64,000 nucleotides of DNA from Bacteroidota bacterium (GTDB lineage Bacteria > Bacteroidota > Bacteroidia > Chitinophagales > Saprospiraceae): positions 1 to 64,000 of the forward strand of contig CAUJDW010000158.1 in assembly GCA_963169455.1 (NCBI GenBank), given 5' to 3'. The first letter of the stretch is position 1. Each line of letters opens with the position of its first letter. The position numbers and the translations under genes are program-made. Below are positions 7,252 through 51,581 of the stretch, in pieces. The notes below the pieces were generated by a model. That model ran no database searches and was not told the DNA's origin. It worked only from the letters and a program-made list of their open reading frames with translations.

Positions 7252-8616
7252 ATGGATTTCAGCCAACTCTTCGCCCAGTTCAACACCCAGGACAGCTACG
7301 CCATCCTGTTTATCATGCTCATCGCATTCCTCTTCGGGCTGCTGGTGGGCTACCTGCTCAGAAGCCGCCGCGTGGCATTGCTCCGGCGGGAACTGAAGGA
7401 AAAGGAAAAGGAACTGGCGGAAGTACGCGTTGAACTCGAGGCGCTGCAGGAACAGTTCGCACTGAAAGAAGCCGACCTGAAAAAGGCAGGCTTCGCCGTG
7501 GAAGAAGCGGAGGCCAGGGTAAGCCGGATCGAAGAGGAAAAGGGCAGCCTGCATCGCGACATTTTCCAGCTCAACCGCAGGATCGAGGAACTGGAAGCCG
7601 GCGCGAAATCATATACCGCCACCATCGAAGACCTCAATAACCAGCTCGCCGGCCACAATCACCAGGAAGAAAGCCTGAAGGAACACATCACCGCCCTCAA
7701 CGAACAGCTCCTCTCCCTCCAGTCCCACAACCTGGAACTCTCCAGTTCCCTGGAACAGGAAGGCCAGTCGCTCAACGACCTGGCTCAGATGCAGAGCATC
7801 TACAACGCCACCCGCAACCGGCTGGAAGCCCTCGAAAACCGCCTGGAACGCCTCAGCGAGGAGAACCAGGAACTGCGCCTGGGGCTGAGGAAACTTCAGG
7901 AAAGCAGCCAGCCGGCCGAACGCAGCATCCCGCACGAACCGCCCCTGAGCGCCGGCGAACCGCTGGAAATCTCCGCCCTGCACCCTCACCCCGGGCTCCC
8001 CGACGCCAGCCTGATCGAAAATGAGCCGGAAGTCGTCATCGGCGCAGATAAACAGATACTAGCCGAAAAGATCATCCTGCCGGATGAAGCGCCCGAACAG
8101 GACGACCTGACCCGCATCGACGGCATCGGCCCCTTCCTGGAAAAGAAACTTCACGAAATCGGCGTATTCACCTACGACGAGATCGCAGCCTGGGACTCCG
8201 AGCGCATCCGCGAAGTAACCGCCGCTATCCAGTATTTCGAGGGCCGCATCGAACGCGACAACTGGGTAGAACAGGCTGCTCACCTGGCCATGAAAAAACT
8301 GGAAAACCCCGAAGCGTTCCGCAAAGGCTCCGTCGCCGCCCTGTCTGCTGACCCGACAGACCTGAAAGCCATCGAAGGCATCGGGCCCAGAATTGAAGAA
8401 TTGCTCAAAACAGCTGGCTTCAACACCTGGGCCGACCTGGCCGACGCCAGCGCCGAACAACTGAACGCCATCCTCGATGCCGCCGGCGCCAGCTATAACC
8501 TCCATGACCCCGCCACCTGGCCCACCCAGGCCCGCCTGGCCAATAACGGCGAATGGAACCTCCTTAGGGAATATCAGGATGAACTGAAAGGCGGCCGGGA
8601 AATTGGCCATAAATAG
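7252..8616 (+). CDS. Membrane-anchored coiled-coil protein with two C-terminal helix-hairpin-helix domains
   Basis: N-terminal TM helix, long Glu/Leu-rich coiled coil, two HhH motifs (LTRIDGIGPFLEKKLHEIGV; LKAIEGIGPRIEELLKTAGF). Confidence 0.82.
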   Translation: MDFSQLFAQFNTQDSYAILFIMLIAFLFGLLVGYLLRSRRVALLRRELKEKEKELAEVRVELEALQEQFALKEADLKKAGFAVEEAEARVSRIEEEKGSLHRDIFQLNRRIEELEAGAKSYTATIEDLNNQLAGHNHQEESLKEHITALNEQLLSLQSHNLELSSSLEQEGQSLNDLAQMQSIYNATRNRLEALENRLERLSEENQELRLGLRKLQESSQPAERSIPHEPPLSAGEPLEISALHPHPGLPDASLIENEPEVVIGADKQILAEKIILPDEAPEQDDLTRIDGIGPFLEKKLHEIGVFTYDEIAAWDSERIREVTAAIQYFEGRIERDNWVEQAAHLAMKKLENPEAFRKGSVAALSADPTDLKAIEGIGPRIEELLKTAGFNTWADLADASAEQLNAILDAAGASYNLHDPATWPTQARLANNGEWNLLREYQDELKGGREIGHK

Positions 8617-8819: not shown

Positions 8820-8847
8820 ACAAGTCGAAAAGGTTCGGCTTTTTTTT
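8820..8847 (+). terminator. Intrinsic terminator (AAGTCGAA-AAGG-TTCGGCTT + T tract)
   Basis: 8-bp stem followed by a T run, about 200 bp after the 7252..8616 gene. Confidence 0.65.
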
Positions 8848-8860
8848 ATGAAATTTGTAA

Positions 8861-8891
8861 TTGTATTTTTTACACAAAGTACTTATCTTTG
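8861..8891 (+). promoter_or_regulatory. Bacteroidota-type promoter TTG-N20-TAtcTTTG
   Basis: TTG at 8861-8863, TATCTTTG at 8884-8891. Confidence 0.65.
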
Positions 8892-8896
8892 TGGCG

Positions 8897-8990
8897 TGAC
8901 CCGAAAATAGATACTTCGCTATAAAAGAATAATTTGGTTTTATTTGGTTAGGGCTGAGGTAGTGCTGCGTAAGCGCTGCCTCTTTTTTTT
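8897..8990 (+). ncRNA. Candidate small RNA between convergent genes
   Basis: Starts about 6 nt after the -7 box and ends with perfect 10-bp stem GAGGTAGTGC/GCGCTGCCTC (8956-8965/8973-8982, two G-U pairs) plus T8; no ORF. Confidence 0.55.
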
Positions 8991-9069: not shown

Positions 9070-9627
9070 TCAAAGTTCCCGAAACGCCACCTCCACCCTG
9101 ATCTCTTTTTCATCAGACAAGGCCGTCGATTGCTTCGTCATCAGGCTGTAGCCTTTTCCTGCCCGGTAGTACATATCCTGGTAAACATCGGCAACCAGGC
9201 TTTCGGTGCGGTTGAGGATGTGGACGGACGTTACCGCTCCTTCATCATATTCAATCTCCATCAGGCGGGTCTTCAGCTTTTCGTCAAGAGCGGTGTAGGT
9301 GGCCTGCCGGAGCTGCCCTGCCTGGAAAGTACTGTCCACGCGGTATTTGTCGAACCAGGCGGTTTTATTGATGTCCGAACGGGAAAAAACAGCCAGTTCC
9401 TTCGAATAATCGAGGGAATCGAAAACCTGCTCTTCCGCTTTCCCGTCGATGGAAATGCGCTTCAGCACCCTGGGCTGCAAAGCGGAAAGCTGCTGCGTTT
9501 CCTGCTGCATATATTCCTTCAGGCCGAAAAAAGCCTGCGGCTGGCCTGCATTTTTTTTTCCGATACCACCGGAACAGGCGGGAATCAGTATCAGCGCCAA
9601 TGCCAGATACAGGAGCGTTTGTCTCAT
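9070..9627 (-). CDS. Hypothetical lipoprotein
   Basis: Lipobox-like signal (LILIPACSGG); coherent ORF. Confidence 0.7.
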   Translation of the reverse strand: MRQTLLYLALALILIPACSGGIGKKNAGQPQAFFGLKEYMQQETQQLSALQPRVLKRISIDGKAEEQVFDSLDYSKELAVFSRSDINKTAWFDKYRVDSTFQAGQLRQATYTALDEKLKTRLMEIEYDEGAVTSVHILNRTESLVADVYQDMYYRAGKGYSLMTKQSTALSDEKEIRVEVAFREL

Positions 9628-51116: not shown

Positions 51117-51134
51117 CCAAACCGAATAAAGCAA

Positions 51135-51581
51135 TTGGCCATGAGAAACATCTTACTTCTGCTCTTTACCGCCTTTTCAACAGCCACTGCCGCTCTGGCG
51201 CAGCCCTCACCCGTGGGGATATGGAAAACCATCGATGACAAAACCGGCGAGGCCAAGTCCCACCTCGAGGTTTACGAACAGGGCGGCCAGTACTACGGCA
51301 AGGTCGTCAAACTGCTCAAATCCAGCCCCGACAAAAAATGCACCGAGTGCCCCGGGAGCAAAAAAAACCAGCCCATACTCGGCATGGTGGTGCTCGAAGG
51401 CATGAAACCCCACGAAGATTACTGGAGGAAAGGCAAGATACTCGACCCCGAAAGCGGCAATGAATACGGCTGCACAATCTGGTTCGAAAAAGGCAAGCCC
51501 AATGAACTGAAAGTACGGGGCATCCACTGGACGGGGCTCTACCGCACCCAGACCTGGTACAGAGTGAACCAGGGCAGCTGA
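51135..51581 (+). CDS. DUF2147 domain secreted protein
   Basis: PVGIWKTIDDKTGEAKSHLEVYEQGGQYYGKVVKLL...GNEYGCTIWFEKGKPNELKVRG. Confidence 0.88.
   Translation: MAMRNILLLLFTAFSTATAALAQPSPVGIWKTIDDKTGEAKSHLEVYEQGGQYYGKVVKLLKSSPDKKCTECPGSKKNQPILGMVVLEGMKPHEDYWRKGKILDPESGNEYGCTIWFEKGKPNELKVRGIHWTGLYRTQTWYRVNQGS

Follow-up and report, generated by a model that had tools for sequence, protein, structure and literature searches.

A putative trans-acting small RNA of Saprospiraceae predicted to act at the start regions of amino-acid-catabolism mRNAs

Introduction

What is encoded in the short gap between two convergent genes of a Saprospiraceae bacterium, where an apparent promoter faces an apparent terminator and neither neighbouring gene accounts for either? 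The gap lies in a 64,000-nucleotide stretch of contig DNA, hereafter the window, and a sequence-only reading had proposed that it holds an independent small RNA (sRNA). Conservation, covariation and the placement of complementary sites were analysed computationally, and the interpretation favoured here, with a probability of roughly 0.82, is that the locus encodes a trans-acting sRNA that would block ribosome loading on amino-acid-catabolism mRNAs.

Results

Architecture of the locus

The two flanking genes, 7252-8616(+), whose product is a coiled-coil/helix-hairpin-helix protein, and 9070-9627(-), a small gene with no assigned family that lies ahead of phosphoglycerate mutase, point inward as first described. 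The features between them are as follows.

8822..8847, plus strand: terminator-like hairpin and T run, upstream of the sRNA and outside its conserved core
8857..8879, plus strand: inverted repeat GTAATTGTA-N5-TACACAAAG that resembles an operator and covers the -33 box, conserved among homologous loci
8861..8891, plus strand: sigma-A-type Bacteroidota promoter TTG-N20-TATCTTTG, read directly from the sequence, its pattern conserved among loci
8897..8990, plus strand: predicted non-coding sRNA transcript of about 94-95 nt, from promoter and terminator positions and the absence of an ORF
8897..8922, plus strand: variable 5′ segment of the sRNA, unconserved in both sequence and length among homologues
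8931..8953, plus strand: near-invariant seed AATTTGGTTTTATTTGGTTAGGG with direct repeat ATTTGGTT, from a 26-genus alignment; it complements the start regions of mRNAs for amino-acid catabolism
8956..8990, plus strand: intrinsic terminator with a covarying stem of 11 pairs, a 5-base loop and T8

The promoter that had been read at this position is present, with the -33 TTG at 8861-8863 separated by a 20-nt spacer from TATCTTTG at 8884-8891, and these elements place the predicted transcript start near 8897. The terminator originally described as a perfect 10-bp stem followed by T8 was borne out in its hairpin (8956-8982) and its T8, which ends at 8990, but not in the details of its stem, which has 11 pairs and is not strictly perfect because two of them are G-U. 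As had been claimed, no ORF occurs within 8897-8990, and the predicted transcript shows no coding potential; the single-sequence folding z-score of the element is -2.5. The second hairpin and T run noted just upstream are likewise present (hairpin proper, 8822-8841), and this element probably ends or insulates the transcript of the upstream gene.

A conserved RNA in Saprospiraceae

The element was found by BLAST against 60 relatives in about 25 genera of the same family (E<1e-6), and a covariance model detected at least one copy of its 67-nt core (8923-8990) in 125 of the 199 family genomes, leaving about one-third of them without a detectable copy. An exact scan of GTDB genomes returned at least 119 contigs bearing the exact motif; those that carry names belong to Saprospirales and, among the matches listed, include Neolewinella, Lewinella, Phaeodactylibacter, Flavilitoribacter and Aureispira. 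In the core, the nearly invariant motif AAUUUGGUUUUAUUUGGUUAGGG precedes a terminator stem that covaries, and across homologues the segment 8923-8990 is almost fixed as AUAAUUUGGUUUUAUUUGGUUAGGGCUGAGGUAG followed by the remainder of the terminator. The covariation analysis that had been recommended for related genomes revealed compensatory changes in this stem, with 19 cells changed on both sides as compared with 4.6 after shuffling, and 97.2% of the cells are paired versus 31-65% after sliding.

The promoter is conserved along with the core. Its pattern is found no more than 150 nt upstream of the core in 54 of 112 distinct homologous loci where 1.0 would be expected, with a maximum of 3 in 50 resamplings and none on the antisense strand. 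Conservation of promoter and stem in relatives had been set beforehand as one test of the proposal, and both were found. The inverted repeat over the promoter, scored as GTAATTGTA-N5-TACA with at most one mismatch, is present in 36 of the 112 loci (0.02 expected) and is a perfect palindrome in one of them (L008). This element, GTAATTGTA-N5-TACAATTAC, is an apparent operator of a transcription factor; the genome's own operator regulon comprises only the sRNA promoter, which holds the sole exact match, and one two-mismatch palindrome on contig C103, and so no transcription factor can be named.

A divergent gene for an M28-family peptidase is the upstream neighbour of the sRNA in 72 of 101 loci (L149-L267), an adjacency that fits a role in protein or amino-acid use. 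The window departs from this arrangement, having the coiled-coil/helix-hairpin-helix gene in that place, and its downstream neighbours recur elsewhere, the small gene in 13 loci and phosphoglycerate mutase in 8.

Terminators are to be expected between convergent genes, and terminator-like sites arise about three times per 2 kb in shuffled sequence, so the arrangement might in principle be a chance juxtaposition of promoter and terminator, or simply the terminator of a neighbouring gene. As a whole explanation this is refuted by a conserved seed, a promoter and a covarying stem in 125 genomes with differing neighbourhoods, and virtually no weight is given to it. The same lines of evidence (promoter, core and terminator conservation in dozens of genera, variable gene neighbourhoods and stem covariation) support the original proposal of what appears to be an independent promoter-to-terminator sRNA.

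The length and location of the element would also suit a known RNA such as 6S, tmRNA, Flavo-1 or another Rfam family, some of which had been suggested at the outset. However, neither the window nor 12 homologous loci gave a match at the Rfam gathering threshold, which makes a known identity extremely improbable, and the family was found neither in Rfam nor in the literature searched. At a permissive Rfam threshold, sbrA was rejected as a chance-level match (18 bits against a cut-off of 45), as were alpha_tmRNA and CrcZ, which gave chance matches only. On these comparisons, the predicted sRNA is a real, previously uncatalogued family common to most Saprospiraceae.

Several more divergent occurrences accompany the main family. 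Extra copies with a UUGGUUUUAUUUGGUU-type motif and unrelated terminator stems are found at L108 and L503 (genome G020) and at L414 (genome G027), the last being a tandem pair 83 nt apart, and one viral contig contains the seed motif unchanged (L538:5517-5537; IMGVR_UViG_3300032116_000675). A class-wide covariance search outside the family yielded weak matches only, in 49 of 395 genomes at E<=0.1, which is about the chance number; a few reach E of about 1e-4 (L065-L070). Two of these, L067 and L068 from other families of the class, contain AATTTGGTT..ATTTGGTTAG-like stretches between the stop codon of T9SS-cargo-like genes and a terminator, and may be 3′-UTR relatives or products of chance. 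At L074 (genome G522), around 1440-1570, two tandem GGTTAAGGGTTGAGTAGTGG..hairpin..T-run units occur in a different family that belongs to the same taxonomic order.

Complementary sites at start codons

The window's own genome was searched for sequences complementary to the invariant stretch (query CCTAACCAAATAAAACCA, an 18-mer, with up to 3 mismatches). Each of the seven non-self matches is in sense orientation and precedes an ATG by 4-7 nt, whereas 300 composition-shuffled motifs placed only 17 of 230 matches (7.4%) in this way, giving p of about 1e-8; these start-region statistics rest on 1.1 Mb, and three stretches chosen for holding matches were left out of the shuffled-motif test and of the energy ranking described below. 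By profile search, the genes concerned, which are on contigs other than that of the sRNA, encode an enzyme of the cystathionine-gamma-synthase/methionine-gamma-lyase family, tyrosine phenol-lyase, alanine dehydrogenase, an AlaDh/PNT-N protein that probably belongs to lysine catabolism, a ParA-like ATPase, a PaaY-like protein and an M49 dipeptidyl peptidase. When 611 start regions of this genome were ranked by duplex energy, the top position went to a Glu/Leu/Phe/Val-type dehydrogenase very similar to a target in genome G020; the scan serves for ranking only, its background being noisy since shuffled seeds vary widely. The window itself contains one further candidate.

51117..51143, plus strand: candidate extra target site CCAAACCGAATAAAGCA, 7 nt before the ATG of a small secreted-protein gene; a weak site with 2 mismatches and 2 G-U pairs

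The placement of sites depends on the presence of the sRNA. In six carrier relatives, 23 of 68 near-complementary sites fall in start regions, as compared with 2 of 41 in six non-carriers (Fisher p=2.6e-4). The carrier figures derive from 70 distinct sites, 24 of them in start regions, after removal of L414 (counted as start-region) and L503, both of which are sRNA paralogues read backwards; the other two-thirds of the carriers' sites are located away from start codons, as background would give. Start-region matches in carriers include three proteins of the Phe-Tyr pathway (HppD, fumarylacetoacetase and phenylalanine 4-monooxygenase), alanine dehydrogenase in two genera, a Glu/Leu/Phe/Val dehydrogenase, arginase, acyl-CoA dehydrogenases in two genera and three E1-type 2-oxoacid dehydrogenases, for which a branched-chain role might be supposed. 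The Cys/Met PLP lyase target of the window's genome is matched in a carrier relative as well. Several targets recur among genomes, namely alanine dehydrogenase (G000, G018, G027 and others), the Cys/Met PLP lyase (G000, G020), HppD (G010, G018), glutamate-type dehydrogenase (G000, G020) and acyl-CoA dehydrogenase (G001, G020, G028), with HppD being a target in some genomes only. The target functions are coherent: by manual classification, about 13-14 of the 23 are catabolic for amino acids or acyl-CoA, versus 3 of 15 shuffled-motif matches (rough p of about 0.01). In a separate observation, genome G030 contains an identical 18-mer, CCGAAGCAAAAAAAACCA, at nine contig positions, probably as part of a multicopy mobile element.

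Alanine dehydrogenase, a family matched in 60 of 61 genomes, permitted a direct comparison of leaders. The site is present in 19 of 34 carriers and in 1 of 16 non-carriers (Mann-Whitney p=6e-4), and shuffled seeds scored in the same carriers average 2.0, with a maximum of 11. In most cases its end is 5-11 nt upstream of the AUG, at a near-constant distance, within a leader that otherwise diverges.

These start-region motifs might instead act as general translational enhancers or as sites for an RNA-binding protein, comparable to the A-rich sites of Crc/Hfq in Pseudomonas, with the sRNA serving as a decoy or merely resembling their complement, and no pairing taking place. The sites resemble other start regions in being A/C-rich; in Bacteroidota, mRNAs have no Shine-Dalgarno sequences and make use of A-rich upstream positions (PMC6847099), and RRM proteins of Bacteroides are known to bind sRNAs (PMC11697453). 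Yet composition-matched shuffles reach start regions far less often than the real motif, and the sites are nearly absent from relatives that lack the sRNA, both overall and at alanine dehydrogenase. Many of the deviations at alanine dehydrogenase sites (AAUCAAAU for AACCAAAU, GAUCAAG) still pair through G-U, and a protein decoy would be expected to bear the motif itself rather than its complement. An enhancer or decoy is thus considered unlikely.

Even less likely is that the RNA is real and its conserved stretch persists chiefly because it serves protein binding, transcript stability or termination, with complementarity to mRNAs a minor by-product. That stretch does adjoin the terminator, is nearly invariant and includes the direct repeat AUUUGGUU, and the weak class-wide matches at L067 and L068 show comparable stretches in 3′ UTRs, ahead of terminators. 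Those class-wide matches are near chance in number, however, and a by-product would predict neither the pattern of targets nor its dependence on the sRNA. Pairing between sRNA and mRNA is the reading that is retained here.

Two properties of the seed bear on the strength of the pairing argument. Its predicted accessibility is about 0.45 (mean unpaired), the seed being only partly open because of weak A-U and G-U pairs. In lineages with a U-to-C change in the seed (GGUUUCAUUUGG), no compensatory A-to-G sites were found at start codons, and sites are few; it is here, in seed-target covariation, that the evolutionary argument is weakest.

Discussion

The locus has its own promoter, no ORF, an intrinsic terminator and targets encoded elsewhere, which are the defining features of such an sRNA, together with a conserved seed that is complementary to target mRNAs. 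By kind, it is most readily described as a trans-encoded sRNA predicted to bind start regions. Beyond the conserved promoter, seed and terminator, the covarying stem, the more-than-chance occurrence of complementary sites at start codons, its dependence on the sRNA and the coherent target functions, we infer transcription, pairing in cells, a repressive effect and a controlling signal.

In the proposed mechanism, RNA polymerase would start near 8897 from the sigma-A-type promoter bearing the operator-like palindrome, and stop at the 8956-8990 hairpin. The seed (8931-8953) would then pair with a C/A-rich mRNA site (consensus CCUAAYCAAAUAAAAC) whose end is about 4-11 nt upstream of the target AUG. 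Such pairing would mask the landing area of the 30S subunit and thereby block translation initiation. The predicted targets are mainly amino-acid-degrading enzymes that route carbon to central metabolism: alanine and glutamate-type dehydrogenases, PheH, HppD, fumarylacetoacetase, tyrosine phenol-lyase, a methionine-gamma-lyase-like enzyme, arginase, E1-type 2-oxoacid dehydrogenases and short-chain acyl-CoA dehydrogenases. Conceivably, an RNA-binding protein helps or competes at the partly open seed, as RbpB does with FopS. The sRNA is probably a catabolite-repression-type brake on the burning of amino acids. A broader and distinctly tentative proposal is that it acts as an Hfq-independent, lineage-wide catabolite-repression RNA, one seed coordinating amino-acid degradation across Saprospiraceae, with a dedicated factor on GTAATTGTA-N5-TACAATTAC, a link to the M28 peptidase, and paralogues that split the regulon in some species.

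In the Crc/Hfq system of Pseudomonas, the mRNA is bound by proteins and the sRNA serves as a decoy, unlike the present case, in which the sRNA itself complements the mRNA site. The resemblance to Crc/Hfq-CrcZ is that catabolic genes are repressed translationally at start-region motifs (PMC3480352).

Closer analogs are GibS and FopS of Bacteroides, which are also encoded in intergenic regions of Bacteroidota, possess a conserved seed and end in an intrinsic terminator (PMC7366714, PMC11697453). They bind metabolic mRNAs where translation starts and repress them without Hfq, a repression that would be shared by the RNA described here. GibS pairs at start codons (PMC7366714), and FopS pairing occludes the susC start region and blocks translation in vitro (PMC11697453); FopS has paralogues, just as extra copies of the present sRNA occur in some genomes. 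The two systems differ in that the GibS/FopS seed is at the 5′ end (R1, shared by the family), whereas here the 5′ part is variable and the seed abuts the terminator. Their targets are glycan-use genes (PULs) and glycogen enzymes rather than amino-acid catabolic genes, and the present sRNA was found here in Saprospiraceae only. Judged by the published descriptions, the differences thus concern seed position, lineage and regulon.

Rfp18 of Flavobacterium psychrophilum, compared here by its description, is similarly a conserved Bacteroidota sRNA tied to the physiology of protein degradation, through metalloproteases, but it is predicted to pair via its third stem-loop and its deletion lowers target mRNAs (PMC9723704). 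The sibling sRNAs NgncR_162/163 of Neisseria likewise exert global control over amino-acid uptake and catabolism and the TCA cycle by pairing at ribosome binding sites, although they are a sibling pair with a loop seed (SL2) from an unrelated lineage (PMC9973317).

Riboregulation in Bacteroidota is little known outside Bacteroides and Flavobacterium, and the literature searched contained no paper on a Saprospiraceae sRNA. What emerges is an RNA family absent from existing lists, for which a covariance model, a well-delimited seed and a coherent regulon open to testing are available. It would also illustrate clearly how an sRNA can control start regions devoid of Shine-Dalgarno sequences, and it would open to test how protein-degrading Bacteroidota rank amino acids against other sources of carbon.
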